Positions 2,106 to 19,100 of a stretch of DNA of 64,000 nucleotides are shown piece by piece. Below the pieces are notes generated by a model. That model did no database searches and had not been told where the DNA came from. It was given only the letters and a program-made list of their open reading frames with translations. Within the stretch, counting starts at the first letter, position 1, and each line of letters starts with the position of its first letter. Origin of the DNA: Pholiota molesta (taxonomy: Eukaryota > Basidiomycota > Agaricomycetes > Agaricales > Strophariaceae). A program made the translations under genes and the position numbers. The stretch spans positions 124,001 through 188,000 of the forward strand of contig JACGCK010000045.1 of assembly GCA_014925825.1 (NCBI GenBank), written 5' to 3'.

Positions 2106-2942
2106 ATGCATACCAACAGAACTGCCTATATTTATCACCAATTCGGCAGTTCAATGAACGAATCTTCCGACGAGGTCGTTTTACTGCCACAATCCCCCAT
2201 AGAAGATCTACGCCGCCTTTCACCTCTATCCCTCTCATCACACAACTTTTTCTTCGAATCGACATGCGCCTCCCCGATGCCGTATGAAGAGAAAGAATTC
2301 CCCAATTCACGCTATGTTCCCCCCGACGTAGATTTTTTCTCGACACAGGAGATGCAGAGTAAATTCCGTAGCTCCTTCGATACGTTGCAAACGGACGATT
2401 GTCACCGCGATTGGCAATTGACAGACGCCTTGGATCGCTACAACGACCTCGAGAACTCATCCAACTCAGAGGATTCCGAATTCGAGATGGACGAAGACAT
2501 ACGAAGCGCGAGCCCATCCATTTGCGCGACCGCTCGCATAGTCAAAATAACCCCATTGCGCGTAGTTAGGCGCTCGGTTAGGCGCTCATCCTTACCCGAG
2601 ACCAAATCACATGGGACTCATCCGTCCTCAGCCGAGGGCGCCTTCAACACGCACGCAATTCCGCTTCGTTCGCTCTCACAGAAGTTATCCGTTGATAACC
2701 TCAAGAGACTGATCTTGCCATGGAGAACAAGCGACTTGATTGGCCCGATTGATGCCCAAGCAACCTCGTCGTCGCGTTCCAGTTCAGATATGGGGCATAC
2801 CGGCGGCGCCGCGGTGGGGGACATCACCATAATAGAGCTCCACGACGTCACTCAGGAAGCCGTCCGACTAGCAGAAATGATGAGTTACAAGTGGAAGTTT
2901 GAACCCGCTGTAATACATGGGTTCGTCCAGCCGTCAGACTGA
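2106..2942 (+). CDS. hypothetical 278-aa protein
   Basis: A single open frame of 278 codons with no intron needed. The N-terminal half is Ser/Pro-rich and acidic (SNSEDSEFEMDED near residue 120-130). A basic stretch RVVRRSVRRSS follows, and the C-terminus contains a more ordered segment (DITIIELHDVTQEAVRLAEM). There is no signal peptide, membrane segment or recognised domain. The mix of acidic and basic low-complexity parts suggests a partly disordered, possibly nuclear protein, which is inference. A TATA-like motif lies upstream. The length of the frame and the lack of stops support a real gene. Confidence 0.6.
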   Translation: MHTNRTAYIYHQFGSSMNESSDEVVLLPQSPIEDLRRLSPLSLSSHNFFFESTCASPMPYEEKEFPNSRYVPPDVDFFSTQEMQSKFRSSFDTLQTDDCHRDWQLTDALDRYNDLENSSNSEDSEFEMDEDIRSASPSICATARIVKITPLRVVRRSVRRSSLPETKSHGTHPSSAEGAFNTHAIPLRSLSQKLSVDNLKRLILPWRTSDLIGPIDAQATSSSRSSSDMGHTGGAAVGDITIIELHDVTQEAVRLAEMMSYKWKFEPAVIHGFVQPSD

Positions 2943-3148
2943 ATTTCGGGTGCAGAAGTTTTCTGGATTCTTCCGAAGGTGTTCATGCTAGACGCATATT
3001 TATTTCTGGTAGGAATCATGGGATGTCGTTTTCAGAGCGGTCTTTGCGGGACTATTCCATCTTGTAATTATATACAGCGGTATATTCTGTAATATTGTAT
3101 TTTTAGTATCAGTGTAAATCAAGTCCGTCAAAACGATTCAGATCCAAC

Positions 3149-3153
3149 AAAAA
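3149..3153 (-). terminator. Pol III terminator for tRNA-Gly
   Basis: Read on the minus strand this is a run of five T, about 22 nt beyond the 3' end of the tRNA gene, as expected for RNA polymerase III termination. Confidence 0.55.
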
Positions 3154-3174
3154 TCTTCAGAATAGGTTCATGCA

Positions 3175-3278
3175 TGCATTAAGAGAGAATCGAACTCCCG
3201 GCGGGTCGAGTTACTTGTTTGTACACAGAGGTCACTGGGAAATGGCAACGACCCAGGTTACCACTACCCCATTAATGC
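3175..3278 (-). tRNA. tRNA-Gly: tRNA-Gly(GCC) with a 33-nt intron
   Basis: The minus strand folds into a full cloverleaf. The seven-pair acceptor stem (GCATTAA with TTAATGC) is perfect and the discriminator base is A. The D loop is AGTGGTA. The anticodon stem GGTCG pairs perfectly with CGACC. The T arm is GGGAG-TTCGATT-CTCTC. The anticodon GCC (complement of 3244-3246) follows TT and precedes A. The two halves of the anticodon stem are separated by a 33-nt intron (complement of 3210-3242) one base after the anticodon, the canonical nuclear tRNA intron site. The mature length without CCA is 71 nt, usual for tRNA-Gly. The T arm serves as B box; the A box is slightly off consensus. Confidence 0.93.
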
Positions 3279-4810
3279 GATACATTGCGCTCGAACCCAG
3301 TTTGACCCAATCTCTCCGTGCATGAGAAAACCGGGCTTTGCGCAGCTAATAATATGAAATAGCAAGCCTTTTTTCCAATACTAAGAGCCTTACATAGACT
3401 GTTCAGTGAAACGGCCCGGTATTCTAGCTACCAAACTCTGCTGGCTGCAAGCCATATTCGTCCACATTGTCCCGAGTCTATTCTAGCTATGCACATGCGT
3501 GCTTTTGAACACGGCCCTCCGGTCTGAACATACATTGAACACACTATACCAGCCTAAATTTTCCTCCATGGTAAATACTAAACGATTTACTGGTAATTTA
3601 TGTCTTTGGGTATTTGGACCTAGGAATGTCAATTACATAGATGATAGATTCCTATTCTATCTAATCGGCCCCTATTTTCTTTACTTTTATTATACATAGG
3701 CTTCTGTCAATGAGCGGTCGGTGGGACATTTGTGACTTCTGTTCATCCTCTCGCTCGGAAGGCAGGCCGATACGATAAAACACATGTACCCTCAGCCAAG
3801 CATTTAGCCAAGATATTTTGGGTATCCAACGCGTTCGTTGTGCTTCCATCATAATGTTTCGACCAAGTATGGAATCATATTCCTAGTCCTCGAGGCTATC
3901 TATTCGAAATTCAATCCGATAATTCATTGTGCTGCGCGTTTCCCTTTTTGCATCCCCCGCGCTCCCCCGCGTTGCTTGCTGCTAGTAGCGGGTTCGACGA
4001 GGTGTAGCCACATGATAGAATATATTAATATCTTGTGAGTAATCGCATATTTGAAGGCTGCCTTGGTGGACAGGCTAGGCCAACACACCTGTAGGCTAAT
4101 GAAGCACATCACTCTGAAATGTGTATCTCGCAGGCTCTTATTCAACGTATCCCTGAAGAAATCTCATAACCTCATTATCAATAATAACGTTGGCGCTCGA
4201 CGTTCATCCAACCGATGGATCATCCTTTTTCCACATAATGTGAACACCACGTTATTTCTACGTTATTTCAGGCCTCTTGAAATATTCGATGCGCCGCGTT
4301 GTTATTTTTAATGTGGTTTCAGCACCATGTTATCTACGGAAAAACCGCAGGATGGTAGCACATGTTTCGTCTTCTGACTCCTCCAAGCACAAAGTTGTAG
4401 GCAAACGGCTAACCGGCTAACGTATGCACTTTATCATTGGCGCAGGCATAGAAATCGAATACACCAATATAGATTCAACGCACACACTATAAATAGACGT
4501 CTCTCAGGAGTCCATGCGTTGTTCCGCCTTTCTTGTCGACGAGTAACCACGATTCCTCGATGCAATGTTGCCGGAATTCTCGATAAAATGCTTTCTCGGA
4601 GCCTTAAAAATAGAAATGCCTGTAGCTCACAAGACACCCAACAAGTTCTAGCAGAGGCGTATGGTCATGATGTGAACTAGAAGCATACTACTCATGACGG
4701 TCGCATGTATCAGAATAGTTCATGTTTATGACCGCATGTGCGAGCGCCTCACTCTATCAACCGCAATCAGAATGATAACGGCCCATGCGTCCTTGAGCTC
4801 TCCAAACCGC
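3279..4810. other. intergenic, no gene seen
   Basis: About 1.5 kb without a frame that I can support on either strand. Short open frames overlap on opposite strands, have AT-rich composition and no domain or splice pattern. The right end is the promoter of the sedolisin gene. Confidence 0.4.
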
Positions 4811-4878: not shown

Positions 4879-6831
4879 ATGCGAACTGGATTCTACCTGC
4901 TCGCCGCATTCGTCACCGCGGTCGTTGGAAGCCCCGCTTTCCGCAACCTGGTGGTCCACGAGCAGCGCAGCGACATTCCTGATGGCTTCGTCAAGTCCTC
5001 ACCGGCGCTTGGTACCAATATGCTCAACCTCCGTATCGCGCTCACGCAGAGTGACATGGCTGGTCTCGAGAAAGCTTTATTCGATGTTAGCACACCAGGA
5101 AGCGCGTTATATGGCCAACATTTGACCAAGGAGGAGGTCAGCATCTATTTAAATTTTTCGTTTCTTTCTTAGTCGCTGACAGAATTTCGTGACACACATG
5201 TACAGGTTGAAGCTTTCGTCGCGCCCTCCCCCGAATCTGTTTCTCTAGTTCAGCAATGGCTAGCGGCGAACAATATCACCGCTCACACTATCTCTCCTGC
5301 CGGCGATTGGCTGCAATTTTCTATGCCTATTAGCCAGGCCAACACATTGCTCGACGCAGACTTCACTGTCTTCACACATCCTGAAACCGGTACCACATTG
5401 ACTCGTACGCTGTCGTATTCCATCCCTTCTGCGCTTGTAGGTCATGTAGACCTTGTTCATCCTACCATCACGTTAGTAACTTTCTCGATATATCTACTGG
5501 CGTGAAACAAGACTAATAACCTTGATAACTCCAGCTTCGATAACCCGCATGCCAATCTTCCGGTCGTGGTCAGTCCTAACTTTAGGGTCATAGAGCCATC
5601 AAGCGAGGAGACCGCAGACCTCGAATCCCGCGCCGTTCCTAGTTCATGCAACACCGCTGTGACCCCCGCTTGTCTGCAGGCGCTATATGGCATCCCCACT
5701 ACCCTTGCTACGCAATCGAGCAATAAACTTGCCGTGTCCGGTTTCATACAACAATTCGCGAATCAAGCAGATTTGAAGACTTTCCTCACAGCCTTCCGTC
5801 CCGACCTTTCTTCCTCCACCACGTTCGCTCTCCAGACCCTTGACGGCGGAAGCAACCCACAGAGCTCTAGCCAAGCTGGTATCGAGGCCAACTTGGATAT
5901 CCAATATACCGTTGGTATCGCTTCGGGTGTCCCAACCACTTTTATCTCGGTTGGAGACAACTTCCAAGATGGTAACCTCGAAGGATTCCTTGACATCATT
6001 AACTCGCTTCTCGCCGAAACGAGCCCCCCTCAGGTCCTTACTACGTCTTACGGACAGAATGAAAACACTATCTCCGCTGCTCTTGCTAAGTAAGTCCACT
6101 TACAAATGTTCGATGGACCATGCTTAATTTTCTTTAGCCAACTTTGCAATGCGTATATGCAACTTGGTGCCCGTGGAACTTCTATCCTATTCGCATCCGG
6201 TGATGGAGGCGTTGCCGGATCTCAATCAGGTCGTTGCACAACCTTTTTACCCACATTCCCCTCCGGCTGTCCGTTCATGACCTCCGTCGGAGCCACCACC
6301 GGCATCACCGAAACCGCGGCAACATTCTCCTCCGGAGGATTCTCCAACGTCTTCGCCCGTCCTTCGTACCAATCAACTGCTGTATCTACCTACCTCACTG
6401 CTCTCGGCAACACCAACTCTGGCAAGTTCAACACTACGGGACGAGCCTTCCCCGATGTTTCAGCACAGGGTGAAAACGTCCAGATCGTCCAGTCCGGACA
6501 GACCGGCGGTGTCGATGGAACGAGTTGCTCCAGCCCAATCTTTGCCAGCGTGATCGCGCTCTTGAACGACAAGCTCGCCGCTGCTGGCAAGCCACCTCTG
6601 GGCTTCTTGAACCCATTCCTTTACTCCGCTACAGGTGCAGCCGCACTCAACGATGTCACCACTGGTGAGTTTTGACGATTGAACGACTAAGAAGATTATA
6701 TGAACAAATTATTTCTAGGTGATAACCCAGGATGCAGCACCAACGGCTTCCCCGCGAAAGCAGGATGGGATCCTGTTACCGGCCTTGGAACGCCCAACTT
6801 CGCCAAGCTTTTGACGGCTGTGGGATTGTAG
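4879..6831 (+). CDS. secreted sedolisin, S53 tripeptidyl-peptidase-like
   Basis: Five exons (4879-5136, 5206-5471, 5535-6089, 6138-6664, 6719-6831) with GT-AG introns of 48-69 nt give a 572-aa preproprotein. Residues 1-18 form a signal peptide. An activation prodomain runs to about residue 200 and contains the family pattern LTKEEVEAFVAPSPE. The catalytic domain has the S53 triad: Glu about 292 and Asp about 296 in GIEANLDIQY, and Ser about 489 in DGTSCSSP. FASGDGG (residue about 382) supplies the oxyanion Asp. The C-terminal WDPVTGLGTPNF belongs to the calcium-binding end. The enzyme is expected to act outside the cell at acidic pH, releasing peptides from protein substrates. Nothing in the frame is broken. 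Exon ends were chosen because each join keeps a conserved motif in frame; the first donor (GTCAGC) is the weakest. Confidence 0.95.
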
Positions 6832-7249: not shown

Positions 7250-7735
7250 TCAGTAAGAGCATGGGTTTGGTGTAAGGACGCATCTAAGCGATTGTTAATA
7301 TCAGAACCCTGTATTTGTGTACATATAAATAATGACTTACAATCCAAGTGGCGCGGTTATACTCGATGGAGGGCAGCAATGGAACGCATCTGGGCCTAAT
7401 TATCACGAAATTTTATATGAATACATGATTGTCTGAAGACAGAAAGTACGAGTACAGGCGCAACTTACATGTGATGTGCTAATTAGTTGAGACACATGAT
7501 AAAGTCAGTCCTTGAATATTGTATTGGGCCAATATACATGGGGCGACTACTTACGTCGGGTCCACCACCTAGTGATATTAAGAGGAATATGTGAGCAACC
7601 TTTGGATCGTGTTAATATTCAGAGCAATTGCGACTTACATTCGAAGATTGGCAATCCCCCTTGAGGACTTGGCGCAGCGCGAACTTGCAAAGCAAAGGCG
7701 ACGCTGGCGGCGAGAGAAAGGATTGAAAGCTTCAT
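7250..7735 (-). CDS. small secreted six-cysteine (knottin-like) protein
   Basis: Five exons on the minus strand, 7639-7735, 7555-7568, 7469-7478, 7341-7395 and 7250-7283, encode only 69 residues. Two exons are micro-exons of 14 and 10 nt. All four introns have GTAAGT donors and TAG acceptors (57-76 nt), and the joined frame is exactly 210 nt with stop. Residues 1-20 are a signal peptide (MKLSILSLAASVAFALQVRA). The mature part has six cysteines in the order C-C-CC-C-C, the spacing seen in inhibitor-cystine-knot mini-proteins and small fungal secreted proteins. The role is unknown; it could be an effector-like or antimicrobial peptide. A TATA element (complement of 7808-7814) lies 73 bp upstream of the ATG. 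Any tool that misses the micro-exons would lose this gene. Confidence 0.85.
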
Positions 7736-7807
7736 AGCAGAATGTGGAAGTGAAATAAGTTGCTGAAATTTGTTCGACTTGAGAGCAATCAGCTCAACCA
7801 TGCCTCT

Positions 7808-7814
7808 ACTTATA
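7808..7814 (-). promoter_or_regulatory. TATA box of the cysteine-rich gene
   Basis: Read on the minus strand this is TATAAGT, 73 bp upstream of the start codon at 7735. Confidence 0.5.
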
Positions 7815-7821
7815 CCTTCCA

Positions 7822-9112
7822 AGTCGGTACGAAACTATGAATAAATTTCACTGCCGTTGACTGGAATACGTCCTACGGAGAAGAAGTGCCCCACTTTAGA
7901 TCCATATTCAACGGACCTGGACATGGGCGTTGATTTGTATCAAGGCCATTCTCATAAACCCTAACATATTTCGGCGACTGCTTTCTGTTTCTCTTTAGTA
8001 ATTCTGGCTGAACAACGTCCCTGCAATGTCGGACCCGGCAGGTAGATTGTTGTGCATACAAAGGTGAACAAGCTACATTTATCTAATAACTACTGTTGAG
8101 GTTAAAAACAAATATCGAAGTGTCGTTCGTTCCGGTTTTACTGCAAAAGGCTACTCAAGCAGAGTGTAATACGATTCATCAGTGAAAATATCAAAATCAA
8201 AAGAAGGTGCCTTAGACTGTGCCCACTGGAAGACGCTGATCACGTATATTACCACCTGATGCTTATTAAAGCTTAAAGCCCCATACAAACTAACGAGTAC
8301 GTAGGCAGCCGATTCAGATGTATCTCGCAGGTCATCTATTGTACCACCGTGCATTATTATCTGGTAGATATCTTGCACACAGAAGAATGAAGACACTAAA
8401 AATAGCATATGTCTCAATGGTTATTTGGAGGTCGCGCTCCAGGGTAATCTAGCGCCGATGTGCGTTCAAACCTTCAAACATTCGAGGATGTGTAATACGG
8501 AGAATTACACCTGCGGCACCTGCCGGATCTCTGCTTGTTGAGCAACGTCACCTGGATTTCAACTTCCCAGATTGTCAAAAAGGTACGCACATTGACCCCG
8601 CAAATTTTGTCAGAATCTGTTCAAAATCGGGGAAAGGACCCCACCAGACTAGCCCAGACTTTTCGGAGCGCACCGTCCAAATAGAATTGAAGTCAAAACA
8701 ATAAATTTCGACAGAAGATCACAAGAAAATCAATTTTAGCCCACCCCGAGCGTCGAAAAGTAGTGGCAGACTGTTTTCTGTGTGCAACCAATGGTTCCGT
8801 GTCAATCCGATGCGTGATAAGAGTGTTCATAATTCCCTCCAGAGTCCAGGACGCCCGTGCGTGCGTGTGCGTGGCGTGCGCGTTCGGTTCTGATGATATA
8901 TGTACTAGCGGAGATCAGCGGACCGGTTGGACGTGACTAGTCTTCTGTTCGACCTCAACGTCCGAGTCCAAGGAACCAATCAGCACCCTACTAGCACCTC
9001 TACATCGACACCAGCAGCTAGTTAGGGGGATAGGGAACTCAGAATCTGCACCTAATCAATCATTCAAAACATCTCGAAGCTTCTGAAGCTTTGACGAAGA
9101 GGGTCGCACACA
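7822..9112. other. intergenic with weak ORF and GTGCGTG patch
   Basis: A minus-strand open frame at 8151-8417 (88 codons) has no recognised domain and no clear start context. Around 8856-8890 there is a dense run of GTGCGTG-like heptamers resembling the ends of the hAT-like element at 54.97 kb, possibly a relic of that family. The last 100 bp lead into the cyclophilin relic. Confidence 0.3.
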
Positions 9113-10668
9113 ATGGCACTTCCAACGAATGGCAAAGTCATTCTTGACACCACAGTGGGCGAGATTGAGATCGACCTATGGCCGAAGGTGCGCGGAATTC
9201 CCATCATGCTTTCAGGAATTCTTTGACACGAACTAGGAAGCACCAAAAGCAACCCGCAACTTCCTCGCGCTTTCCATGGAGGGTTTGTGAGTTTCTCTTG
9301 AGCCTCTGCAGACCATTATCTGATTCATACCTGCAGAACACTATGACGGGGTCATCTTTCATCGGTATGCAGCCTCATTCTCCTATAGTAGGGGAAACAT
9401 GGCTCACAGCCTCTTCAATACAGCGTTGTGCCTGGTTTCCTCGTACAAACTGGAGACAGAACGGGACTAGGAGGAGGGGGAGAGTCGTTTTATGGTGGTG
9501 CGTGGTTCAATAACTTATATATACATGGAAATAACGCTGCGTTTCCGAAGAACCCTTCGAAGACGCCCACGGCTGCGGTTCCCTCATCGAAGTATCGTGG
9601 CCATGGCGAACGACGGCACGAAGAATTCGAATGACTCGCAGTTCTTTTATTACCCTCGGTACGGACTATCTGCTGTCTTCTAAAAAAGAATTGACTTAGC
9701 TGTTTGTGACAGACAGAGCAGATGAGCTGCATGGCAACCACACTGTATTCGGGCGCTGCATAATAGGAGATACAGTGTACAGTACGTGTCCGAGCTCTCT
9801 CTCAAACACGCGAAGCTCAAACCGTGTCTAGATGTAATGAAAAGCCGGATCTGATATATAACGCACCCCAGAACTCGACGCCGATGGTCAAATGGTATGG
9901 TAAATTACCCTATCACCATGCCGCAGGCACCAGCTGATTTTTTATTCGCAGCTCACCGAAAATCAAGTCGGTCCGCATTGTGGATAATCCGTCCGACGAT
10001 ATCGTGCCGCGTATCACCGCAGCGGAGAAGCGAGCCCAACAGCGAGCGAGATAGCAAGCACAGCGGGAACGAGAAGAAGAGCAACGGAAGCAGGGTGCGA
10101 AGAAGTAGGGGCTCCATGTTTTTGTCATTCGACCCACCACTGACAAGCACATAGGAATGTGAAGCTGTTGAGCTTTGGAGCAGACGAAGATGCGGGTGAG
10201 GGTGAAGGAATCACGTACAAGAAGCCTATCTATCGACCGGAATGTGCGTCGCAAGAACAATGTTGTGTCTTTCCAGACTGACGTGGCTGTATTTCAGCGG
10301 TCGACCCCACAACAAGTGGAAGACGTCCCAGATTTTGTCTCACAGCAAGTTCCAGCTCTCGCCCTAAACCTCCCGTGGCCTCTTGAGGACCGACCAAAGC
10401 ATTCAAGGTATCCCAGGGAATGCTCCTTCCAGACGAAAAAATCAGCAAAGAAGAAAAAGAGGACATTACCAAGATTCGCGAGCAGCATGCGCGTGAGCAA
10501 TTCGCATCCGAGTATGTTCCTCGCTCCTAATCTTATGCTAATGTCCGTACCTCTTCCCTGGCTATAGACATTCTCGTAAAGCCGAGATTGGGGAAAGCGC
10601 GTGAGGAAGAGCGTGAGGAAGAGGGTGATCGGAAGAAGGCGGTGATCAAGGCGAAGGGGGCACCGTGA
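9113..10668 (+). pseudogene. CWC27: broken CWC27-like cyclophilin
   Basis: The reading matches the spliceosome-associated peptidyl-prolyl isomerase CWC27, including the N-terminal TNGKVIL start, LSMEEHYDGVIFHR, VVPGFLVQTGDRTG, GGGESFYG, RLRF..VAMAN.GTKNSNDSQFF, and later KIKSVRIVDNP and KLLSFGADE segments. About eight short introns fit this alignment (first exon 9113-9187). Against the family pattern, roughly 7 nt are missing between FED and HPRLRF near 9562. An extra T after DSQFF near 9650 shifts the frame, and an in-frame TAG interrupts the basic helix near 10052. The C-terminal half fades out after 10668. The breaks could be real decay or consensus errors, but three in one gene plus a lost C-terminus favour a pseudogene. 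A functional copy would be expected elsewhere. Confidence 0.75.
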
Positions 10669-13151: not shown

Positions 13152-16100
13152 TCAAGCGCTGGCCGGCTGAACGAGTGCCCATAGCTTCGACTTGACCACG
13201 TCGTTGCCATCAAGAACTATGCCCAAGAAGCTGTAATCTGACGAATGACAAATATGTCTACGCGCTTCGTCGAGCAGCGCCGCTATCTTTAATTTGCAGA
13301 CTTGAACATCTAAAGTGTCGGAGACAGAAGACGCTATGCGCAGTGATGATGCAAGCGCAATGTAATCATTCATAGTGAGCCTTCCTGGAAGAGTGTTAAC
13401 ACTCCACTTCGTAGAATTTAAAAAGAGCGGTACCGAAGGAGATAAGAGTTTGAACTAGGCGAAGGAGATCTTCGGTAAGGGAAGCATCCATGTTTGCAAG
13501 CACGCAAGTAAGCTGTGGGATAATGTCTCTTCCCACTGGAGGAAAGGAACCAGAAGATATGACAACAAGTGAAACAAAAAATGGATAGAGGAATACTTAC
13601 CGGCTACTATCTCGCACAGGTCCGAAATGAGTTTGCAGGTCGCTCTATAGAAAGCTACCTCGTTATCCTTGTGCTGAGGGACAACTAAAAAATATATCAG
13701 AGATGTACAACGGTATCCGTGATCATGCAAACCTTTGGGATTATGCGGCAGTTGGTCCATAAGCATGGGAACAATCGATTTGAGCTTGGCTGGGAATTCC
13801 TCTTGTTGGACCAAGACATCAGGATGAACGGCGAAAGTGAAACAACGGAAGCTTACTGAATAACACAAGAGCCGACATCGTTTCAACGAGATTCAGAGGA
13901 TACTCTTCCGAATCCTCTTCCCTCCATACACTCAGTTGCTGTATAAGCTTCTGAATGGCAGGAATGAGATCCGGGCGAAATTCGTCTATTGAACGATATA
14001 TGTCACGTCACCAACACTTACAGCCGTTTGCAGTGTCGATGACACTCGATCAAAATTTGATGTATTCCATATTTGTAATTACTTGGCCAATTTTTGGATT
14101 TTGACGGTCAATTGCACACTCTTTCATCGTATTTTATCCCCAACTGCCATGGTCTTCCGCATCATCAGCCGGGATGTCAAAATTGCTGCTATCCGACTGT
14201 ATGAACGCGAACTACTTGATACGGATAACATTCTTGACTGCTGTGGCTTCTCTCGGAGCACCTGGTTTCGGATACTGAAGCTCTGGCGCGAAACTGGCGA
14301 CGTTGTACCTGAGGCTCAGAGCATCCGAGGACGTGTACGTCATCTAGATCAAGAAGACATCAGTTATCTCTTGAAGCTTATCGCTGACAATCCGGACTAC
14401 TTCTTGGACAAGCTTCTACACCTCCTGGAAACCAATCGCTTCATTTCTGTTCACTTCACAACCATTTTCCGTGAACTTGAGCGTCTCAATGTCAGCCGGA
14501 AGAAGCTCAAGAAGATTGCCTTAGAGCGGAATGATGAACGCAGGGCTGACTTCATTGCACGGATGGCTCAATATTCTCCAGAAGAGATAGGCTTTTTGGA
14601 CGAGATGTCGAAGGATGCCCGTTCAGTTGGACGGCGCTATGGCAGGTCTCGGAAGAACACACGCGCTCCGAAGGAACAGGCCTTTGTTCGAGGACGACGT
14701 ACATCAACTGAAGCTCTTCTCACACTGGATGGAATGGTTGCTGGAACTGTAGTTGAGGGGTCTATGACAAGGGACCTCTTCCTTGAGTTCCTTGAGTTCA
14801 ATGTGGTGAGTACTTCGGAAGCCTTCAGGCTAATGTCCTAAAGGCTCTATCCATAGCTGCCAAAATGCACAGCATATCCCGGTCCTCTAAGTGTGCTCAT
14901 CATGGATAACGCTCGAATTCACCATGGTGATGAGATTCTTGAGCTTGTTGATCGCTTCGGTATGTATCTCATAATACATTGCAAGTAATAACACTGATAC
15001 ACATTGTTCAGGTGTCCGAGTTGAATATTTACCGCCCTATTCACCTGATCTGAACCCAATCGAAGAAGCTTTTTCAAAAATAAAGCATTATCTTCGACGC
15101 CATCAAGACTATTACCTTGCAACAACTGATGATGGAATACTCTTTGATATGTACGAGGTTATGGATATCATCACTTCCGAGGATGCTGCAGGATATTATG
15201 GACATGCAGGATATTTCTGAACACCATTATGTATCATTTGACGTAGCCACAATACAATTACAACACGTTTTCAAACAGAGTCCGTAAAATTACATACGCG
15301 TAGCGGAATTTGATATTTGCAAAGCAGAAGACAAATCAGAGAGTGTGCGGAACTGACCAACGCTCAACAGCATCCTGCAAAGCGGCCTTTTGACCGAGTT
15401 TGAAGCCCATCTCGGTAAGATTCTCAAGCGTGATGAAACGGAGATTACGTGCGAAATCATAAGCATTCTCCTCGAGTTTCTCCAGCACAGCAGGTTGCAA
15501 GCCAAAGGAATTACAGAACTGAGCAATGGGCATATCAGGTCCAATGTCACGGCCTGGGTTGAGTAGCATGGTGCTTGGTTGAGACGAGCGAGCAAGTGGT
15601 TGATGCGCAGAAGGTTCAGCATGACCAATGCCATTACGGAACAGATTGGCAAATTGATCACCAAAAAGAACAACAGGAGGCTGCGAAGCAGGAGGCTGTG
15701 ATGCAACTAGTCCCTTCTGAGCATTTTGAGCATCAATCCGACGTTGAACCACAGGAGATTGGCGGATTGGTCCTTCTGGATCAAAGAGGCGATGATTTGG
15801 GGGTTTTTCAACAGTCGAAGACCCATCGTCTTTGAGCTAGATAAACATGAATATATCAGTAGTGAACAAATCAAATAGAACGAAGGATACCATTGCTGAC
15901 GACCAGCATTCCAAGCGTTCATGGTTGAGCGGGAGGTGGACACTAGTGTCTGGGAAAACATAACAATATGCGCCGATGCATGTACCTGGCTGTCGAATGG
16001 TACATTTCCAGCGCTCTTGAAGCCTTTGGACATTCAGAGCCCTATTTACATTACCTGGAAGGACGGCGGGCTCTTTTTTCTATTGAATTGTATGAATAAG

Positions 16101-19100
16101 TTGTATATATGCGGTTCAAATGGCAACGACACACCTTTTTGGCAGCTTTCCCCCCCTCGATCGCCTCAGGAGCAGCCGGAACTACAGGCACATTCTCCTT
16201 TTCCTTATCCACGGCTGGCTTGACCCCGTGTTTTTGCTGGATAGTGATGTTGATTGTTGGAGTCTTGCTGGCGAGGTTAGCGGCACGCACAAGAAGCGCT
16301 GCATAGTTCTCTTCTATGGACAGAGCCATGCCAGGCTTGGGAAGGACGCGTGGTATGTAGAACATGACTGTAAAATCATCGAAGTTGAGGATTGCGGGGT
16401 TGAGGGCAGTGTCGATTTTGACGAGAAGTTGTGCTTTGACAGTGTCCCAAGGCTCTTGGTTCCCAAGCTCGATGGAATCACTGACTGGCTGGCGCTTTGA
16501 GACAGGCTTGCTGGCCTCCTGTGCAGAGAGTATAGTGAGGATATATGTAAGCTTTGTTGGAGGTGCATCGGGCTCTGTAGATTTACGAGCATTGAGCACT
16601 ATTGCCAATGAGAGATATAATCACAACGCACCAGAATCATCCTCTACTGTCTTCGCCTTTCTGCCTCGTTTTCTCTTGGGAACCGTTGGAGGTGGGCTCG
16701 GGGGAGCACTTGGAATGACCCTTTCATCGAAGCTAGATGGTTCCGGCTCTTCCGCTGCATGGATGGGAGCTGGTTCAAAGTCATTGGATTCGTCGCTGGA
16801 AGATTCAACCACATGATCTCTCTCTGCAATAGGCCCCAAAGGGTGCTCGTCAGCGATCCTAGCAGCTGATTTGATCCTCTTGGATGTTCGAAGAGGCATT
16901 GGGATGTAGGAATTGATGTTGAGATTGAGCACTGAGCGATGGCAGGAGCAATGCTGAGTGAGGAGACACGGCGCACGGCGCGGAGTTGAAATTCTGACGA
17001 AATCTGACCAAGTCATTTATTTTTGGAATACAACAAAAAAACGACGAGTGTCATCAATTATGCAAATAGCTGTAAGATAGATAATAAAGATATTTCGGGC
17101 GCACCTTGTTTCGAAAGGGCTGATACTGCATCAATGGCAGTGTTTCTAACAATCCGATCACCACTGCTGACAGCTTCAGTAAGTCCAGGGATTGCTGATT
17201 TCATAGAACCATAGAAAACATCTAGAATCATGTTAGTCGCATTACTGAAAGCGGACCGGAGGTGAAATTTACAAACCGTGTTTCGCGAGGTGTGCAAGAG
17301 CCGAAACCACATTTCGATCAGGTGAATTCTTGTCGTAGACTAATTTCAACTGGACGACATTATCCACTGCATCGCGAGCTGATTCTAGCCACAGAGTTAG
17401 CCGCCAAAATTTGGCTGAAGAAGTGATCTACTTACTGTTGGCAGGGGTAGGCACTTTAAGATCCTCGCCTCTGAGATCTTTAATTGTGCAATGTCATTAG
17501 AAGAGAAATCAAGGCGTCATCGACAATTTTACCTTCATCCGCCGTCTCCGACAAGATAGCAATCGTTCTGAGCATAAAAGGTAAATCTTTCATTGTCATC
17601 CGGGTTAGGAGTTCACAGATAGTCGTGTCGATCTGCTTCTGGACAGTATCCGTCGTGTCAATGCCTTTTAAGGCGTGTAATAGTTTGTACACTTCCATGC
17701 GTGCCGGCTTGTCGATGATGTCCAGCGTGGATATGACTGCTCTCAAAAATCCCCACACGTCCTCTTGAGGTTCATAATCTATATTTCAGTGAACATCAAG
17801 ACAAGGAAATATCAATTTGACCGACCTTGTTGGCTTAAATCCATCAAAGCGTTGTAAACGGCAGAACGAACTCCTTTGTTTTCGTCCCCGAACTTGCCGA
17901 CGAGTTTAGAAACAACTCTCTCGGACTTCATTCTATCCTGGAACGGGCCTGTACGAAAAATATGAATTTTCGCAGGCAAATAGCTTCGCGCTTATATGAC
18001 GAACCTTTGGTACCCAACATCGACAAGGCTTTTACTGCAGCAGCACGGACATGTTCATCTTTGTCGTCCAATTTACCAGCCAATCTAGCAACAGACATCT
18101 CGGTCTTCATTGTCTCCTGGAATATGGCTATGCGGAGATTTAAGAATCATAAGCTTTTATTTTTGGCCAAGAAGACAGAACTAACGGCGTTCAGACAGCT
18201 GCTCCAGAATCTGGATGGCTTGGTGCCGAGTTACCCAACTTTCATCTTCCAGCTGTTTCACGATTGTAGGAATTGTACATTTGATGTCATTCTGATAAAT
18301 AGCTATATTTAACAATTAATTGCGTCGATTATAAAGAGATTTGATATTCCAACCTTTTTCGCTCAGAACTAACATGGTTGATCGAGCTGCGCTGCGGCTG
18401 CGGAAACTACCGAAAGGGTCTGACTGAGAAACAGCCAGTTTGAGGATGACCTTTTCTGATTTTAACGACCTCTGGAATACGTCTGGACAGAGACGTGAGA
18501 AAAATAATTTACAATAGATATAATGACGAACCTTGGGCACCAAATACAGAGAGCGCCTGCGCTGCTGTAGCACGCACATCCTCATCGCGGTCATTTACAA
18601 ACATATTAGCAAGAATGGAGACAATCTTCTCAGCATTTATGGCCGCTTGGAAGTCAGCTAAGTAAGAACATAAGAACATAAGCATAAGATTCATCTTTAG
18701 ATGGAACAAACCATTGGTAGCCAACTGTGTGAGAACTTGGATTGCTTGTTGCCGGGTACTCCAGCTCTCGTCACTGAGTTGTTGTACAAAACTGGAAATA
18801 GAAAGCAGTGATTTAATATCTTTACTGTAGATCTCTGAAACAAATCAGATACAACAACTCCAGAAATATGACATTTACCGACCATGCGAACTCAATATCG
18901 ACATAGCTTGGACTGCTGCAAAGCGAACATTGATATGACTGTCTGTCAGTTTGCCAAAGAGAATGGAAACGGTGTTTGCAGAATTTAGAGTTTCCTTGAA
19001 GTAGTCTAATAGAATAAATGAGATAAAGAAAAGAGATTGCATATACCAAAAAACGAACTTTGCGTGCCCAATGCTACCAAAGCCTTGATGGCTTCCACAC

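Follow-up and report, generated by a model that had tools for sequence, protein, structure and literature searches.

A Tc1/mariner-type transposon at positions 14021–17072 of a 64,000-nucleotide stretch of the Pholiota molesta genome (contig JACGCK010000045.1; the whole stretch is called the window here) carries two genes, a transposase and a second, convergent gene (gene 2), and related pairs of genes recur in eight divergent groups of elements in the same genome. We favour the reading that these elements form a two-gene family in which transposase and partner gene have descended together and the product of the partner gene is likely a nuclear transposition cofactor that self-associates, and we regard this reading as evenly poised between right and wrong; it is favoured because each element keeps its own version of gene 2 beside its own transposase. 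Just short of that balance stands a broader proposal, namely that the elements represent an ancient, undescribed two-component class of Tc1/mariner that diversified in fungi, with a polymerising protein combining a SAM domain and a zinc-knuckle-like block as the standing partner of the transposase.

The window element (3052 bp), delimited by its paired ends, its TA flanks and a related second element on contig C23, is a TA-flanked DD34E transposon; the models of its transposase and of its convergent, four-exon partner both read through without a break. Terminal inverted repeats, identified by end pairing and a motif scan, occupy 14021–14048 (plus strand) and 17045–17072 (minus strand), and TA target-site copies stand outside both ends at 14019–14020 and 17073–17074, as in the IS630-Tc1-mariner (DD34E) group. 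Across 32 nt, TA included, 14017–14048 and 17045–17076 are 81% complementary. The transposase gene (14149–15220, plus strand; exons 14149–14805, 14857–14959 and 15012–15220, stop included) encodes 322 amino acids, matches Pfam DDE_3 at E 1.1e-22 and has 34 residues between its last two acidic residues, counted by hand on the translation, which is the D-34-E spacing. At its N terminus HTH_23 reaches 21.9 bits against a cut-off of 24.6, and the transposase of a relative, C59, matches HTH_29 just at that model's cut-off.

Gene 2 (15336–16899, minus strand; exons 16899–16632, 16574–16135, 16079–15891 and 15836–15336, stop included) is modelled with the aid of its C23 homologue as a protein of 465 amino acids with three predicted GT..AG introns of 57, 55 and 54 nt. 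The start at 16899 is based on the N terminus of the C23 protein; an unguided model took an in-frame upstream ATG at 17016. Unguided gene models were unreliable for several gene-2 copies, and anchor-guided models still disagree at the ends. The exon at 15891–16079 (minus strand), supported by held-out profiles and intron comparison, carries a conserved C/H-W block, and at the same place after a W-A/S-x-x-M/I motif all 14 gene-2 copies have a phase-0 GT donor, followed by a predicted intron of 50–64 nt, after which the frame continues into a peptide with a PP motif. Between the stop codons of the two genes lie 115 bp, and coding sequence makes up ~77% of the element. An initial annotation, made from the letters of the window, had described a Tc1/mariner element with complete terminal repeats, an unbroken transposase and a multi-exon minus-strand gene with an uncertain join at 15840–15970; the first three are borne out by the paired ends, the open three-exon model and the four-exon gene, and the predicted join agrees with both the C23 homologue and the intron common to the 14 copies.

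Across the genome (65.6 Mb, 625 contigs), a related transposase was found at E ≤ 0.01 in at least 16 loci including the window, a lower bound because only the best candidates were scored. At 14 of the 16 loci, the window and C23 among them, a convergent gene 2 lies between the transposase and the opposite end of the element, and the C2 locus is a decayed copy that keeps a gene-2 tail. The nearest relative is C23 (transposase 66–72% and gene 2 44–51% identical, exon by exon), where the same convergent order fits in 2.98 kb; loci beyond it are ~28–42% identical over the longest stretches. Two-gene elements with both ends found measure 2.98–3.97 kb. The genome search for terminal repeats that the initial annotation had suggested returned four sites with at most three mismatches to the end motif: both window ends, one end of the C23 element and a site on C180, the last with three mismatches, the level of a backwards control that gave one site. 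Terminal repeats were found at 10 of the 14 two-gene loci, by a search that excluded C192b and, for C23, by eye and by blast to the window end; none was found at C181, C608 or C440, and the repeat of C113 lacks the usual CAG start.

Several observations indicate that both genes move and are maintained together. The C85 and C144 elements are 99.6% identical (12 differences in 3,267 aligned bases, plus six gap columns) in unrelated flanks, which shows that the whole two-gene unit moved recently. In the C59/C322 pair, gene 2 is constrained: its ratio of nonsynonymous to synonymous divergence (dN/dS) is 0.08–0.22 in four stretches, compared with 0.065 for the transposase, at a dS of 0.95–1.35 for both. 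Window and C23 copies give gene-2 ratios of 0.21 and 0.36, in the same direction but near saturation. When the genome was searched with a gene-2 protein from every one of the eight groups, no full copy away from a transposase came up, only partial ones at C599 and C615; C599 combines the start of a C85-type gene 2 with the start of its transposase within ~0.9 kb and is an internally deleted remnant. The initial annotation had proposed that the genes travel together rather than by chance capture, and had named an ordinary host copy of gene 2 as grounds for rejecting this; occurrence at 14 loci plus one decayed copy, constraint and recent movement of the unit uphold the proposal, and no full host copy came to light.

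Direct comparison of gene-2 proteins between groups gave weak similarity, and homology was assessed with a held-out test on 11 of the 14 copies in eight groups (C144, C608 and C440 were left out as near-copies). Block profiles were built from seven groups and the eighth was sought among 5,201 six-frame segments drawn from 20 loci and the window. With the C/H-W profile, the best true segment ranked first in five groups and second in three (5,174–5,180 candidates); with the C-terminal profile, it fell within the first five in five of eight groups and failed for C168, C192a and C192b. A direct search with the C168 protein reaches the C192b block at E 0.004. Judged by these sequence comparisons, the second genes are homologous across the eight divergent groups. 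Relatedness of gene 2 and of the transposase also matches moderately across loci: in a first pass on 12 loci, with some models truncated, the two sets of scores correlated at rho 0.67; in a later comparison, which left out C440, C2 and C135, the nearest partner is the same for both genes in 7 of 11 rows, and the match is exact for three clear sister pairs.

The same observations bear on the idea that gene 2 is a host gene captured once by chance, with no role in the life cycle of the element. In close-range comparison, gene 2 of the window and gene 2 of C23 match only each other, as such an accident would have it. Against this stand the same gene in the same place and orientation at 14 loci in eight divergent groups, its constraint in C59/C322, the lack of a host copy in the searches above and the held-out homology across groups, and we regard chance capture as very improbable. 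One ancient capture in the ancestor of the whole family is possible and would be compatible with a co-descended cofactor.

A number of results weigh against joint descent and a cofactor role. The C135 element (1,510 bp, with perfect ends of 76 bp) carries a transposase only, and a relative without gene 2 was one of the grounds on which the initial annotation would have accepted a one-off capture. Its transposase clusters with the two-gene C113/C608 type (support 99/97) and, because of this grouping, the simplest reading is that C135 probably lost gene 2 later, which would argue that the help of gene 2 is not absolute. In the held-out test, block boundaries were picked by eye in all groups; for the C/H-W block a different frame ranked above the true one in three of eight groups, and in the group of the window and C23 the C23 exon came first and the window exon third. 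A two-sequence block profile also matched, at E 0.002, a frame that runs antisense to the C181 transposase; its E-values are thus too optimistic, and held-out ranks were used instead. With better models, over the 13 loci left without C440, C2 and C135, the gene-2/transposase correlation falls to 0.40 (6 of 5,000 shuffles as high), and without near-identical copies it falls to 0.30 (145 of 5,000). The gene-2 models of C85 and C144 differ at both ends despite the near-identity of the elements, and C615 holds ~127 residues of a C168-type gene-2 N terminus with no more similarity in the following 500 bp.

By eye, gene-2 proteins have a common layout: an acidic and basic N terminus is followed by a middle domain, then by a C/H..W-A-x-x-M block and a PP motif, and the C terminus is helical. 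The whole protein matches no Pfam family up to E 1, and Pfam SAM models match its C terminus only below cut-off. A C-terminal profile taking in 7 of the 14 copies placed the tankyrase-1 SAM domain first (E 0.0011) and SAMSN-1 third (E 0.094) among PDB entries, and in a fold comparison of the modelled stretch (15339–15593, minus strand) rows 1–22 are all SAM-domain entries, the model itself being of low confidence. The C terminus is thus likely a SAM domain, with modest confidence, in line with the SAM-like end that the initial annotation had proposed for profile and structure checks. Conservation of the C/H-W block across the copies is supported, and the block has the look of a zinc knuckle. 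The middle domain is modelled with low confidence (predicted local distance difference test score, pLDDT, 56 for the window copy) as strand-helix-strand-helix-strand over 16201–16557 (minus strand); a profile search found no PDB relative for it. As to a candidate ubiquitin-like/PB1 fold for this domain, only a piece of the C192a protein passes the OTU1_UBXL model, at E 8.4e-5, and the longer C192a protein, at E 0.0011, is below cut-off.

If gene 2 is a cofactor, the basic patch PKRKRGRKAK would carry its protein into the nucleus, where the C/H-W block and the middle domain may make contact with the ends or the transposase of the same element. Self-association through SAM would gather several copies on both ends, and these could help the transposase to pair the ends or to enter the target. 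In two-gene PIF/Harbinger, MuDR and CACTA elements, transposition is aided by a second protein that binds either DNA or the transposase; these are the closest functional model for gene 2, although they belong to other superfamilies and their second proteins are unrelated. Element-specific contacts would account for each element having its own, faster-changing version of gene 2.

Faster change of gene 2 (dN 0.10–0.26 compared with 0.06 for the transposase in C59/C322, at similar dS) is also what an arms race predicts, and would equally be accounted for by the principal rival, in which gene 2 is a silencing antagonist whose SAM-driven assembly holds the chromatin of the element open or obstructs a silencing complex of the host. 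C135 shows that movement is possible without gene 2, and TET/JBP genes occur in fungal transposons from several superfamilies, with escape from silencing proposed (PMC12730594). Pfam-type domain searches found no enzymatic or chromatin-reader domain in gene 2, however, and a trans-acting antagonist could be shared, whereas each element keeps its own version; we consider this rival unlikely, with perhaps half the weight of a cofactor. Less probable still is a repressor that limits the copy number of its own element. In its favour, copy numbers are low (the window type comprises two related elements), C85/C144 is the only near-identical pair seen, and C113, C608 and C440 are close to each other. 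Selection within a genome would, however, rarely keep a self-limiting gene across eight divergent groups, and the C85/C144 type moved recently with the gene aboard.

The elements share with typical DD34E Tc1/mariner transposons the TA flanks, terminal inverted repeats, DDE_3 transposase and 34-residue spacing, but differ in being 3.0–4.0 kb long with a second convergent gene. Multi-gene members of Tc1/mariner exist, and so a single gene is not a defining trait. At 3052 bp with two genes, the window element lies outside the one-gene, single-frame form of 1.3–2.4 kb (PMC4188875), a form that is usual rather than defining. Like our elements, ciliate TBE (three frames, one reversed, with purifying selection reported; PMC4724952) and Tec (PMC7325037) are described as Tc1/mariner-related with extra frames. 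Those extras comprise a 22-kD protein whose function is unknown, a zinc-finger/kinase protein of 57 kD and, in Tec, a recombinase; the available portions mention no SAM domain, which sets them apart from gene 2 by description. TA-flanked Mariner elements that have gained Fanzor1, methyltransferase or endonuclease genes (PMC3627910) likewise combine TA flanks with added genes, but theirs are captured enzymes, and gene 2 matched none of these families in Pfam. The fungal TET/JBP transposons likewise move by cut and paste and repeatedly carry an accessory gene, in their case one thought to remove methylation, but the carriers belong to other superfamilies (the word Mariner is absent from the text of PMC12730594) and the enzyme is unrelated.

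No report of a SAM-domain partner in Tc1/mariner was found in the literature searched; a Pleurotus survey does not mention a SAM domain, accessory genes or second open reading frames, and a Laccaria survey does not mention the features sought for such two-gene elements. On this literature, multi-gene Tc1/mariner elements are therefore already known and the form with a SAM-domain partner is new; curated repeat libraries may already contain such elements without comment. The appeal of Tc1/mariner elements as tools is that their transposase is regarded as self-sufficient, and a two-component class, if true, would overturn the view of them as one-gene elements moving unaided. That eight divergent groups in one genome have kept a second protein implies that some step needs help, be it in transposition, targeting or escape from silencing, and a transposition complex containing a SAM protein that self-associates would be novel in design. 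The two-gene elements and the one that probably lost the gene form a natural set in which the role of gene 2 is directly testable.

Further features of the insertions were recorded. The window element sits inside an intron of a minus-strand host gene (13819–17339) with weak HEAT-repeat matches (E 0.018–0.031, below cut-off); joining the host flanks minus one TA yields a 65-nt GT..AG intron with the frame kept. Within the family, terminal repeats span ~30 to 375 nt (for example, L052 346–720/3945–4319, L050 1063–1242/4534–4713 and L047 3371–3495/7072–7196). A T precedes TA on both sides in nine of ten elements with both ends read (L042, L046, L045, L047, L048, L050, L052, L040 and the window, 14019–14020 and 17073–17074; C135 is the exception), so that the empty site would be TTAA and the duplicated part TA only. 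Two insertion sites are perfect palindromes, of 16 bp for C144 and 12 bp for C85. Contig C192 carries members of two groups, C192a and C192b, at a distance of just ~4 kb (L050 1063–4713 and L056), and the decayed element on C2 (561651–584383, part in L053) appears to be split by ~21 kb of other sequence. Elsewhere, L059 holds two near-identical DDE_3-like frames of 600 and 728 residues (2524–4323 and 7713–9896) ~5 kb apart in the same orientation, and beside a C85-type element remnant L062 has a frame (1202–2082) resembling what we take to be a Harbinger-type transposase.

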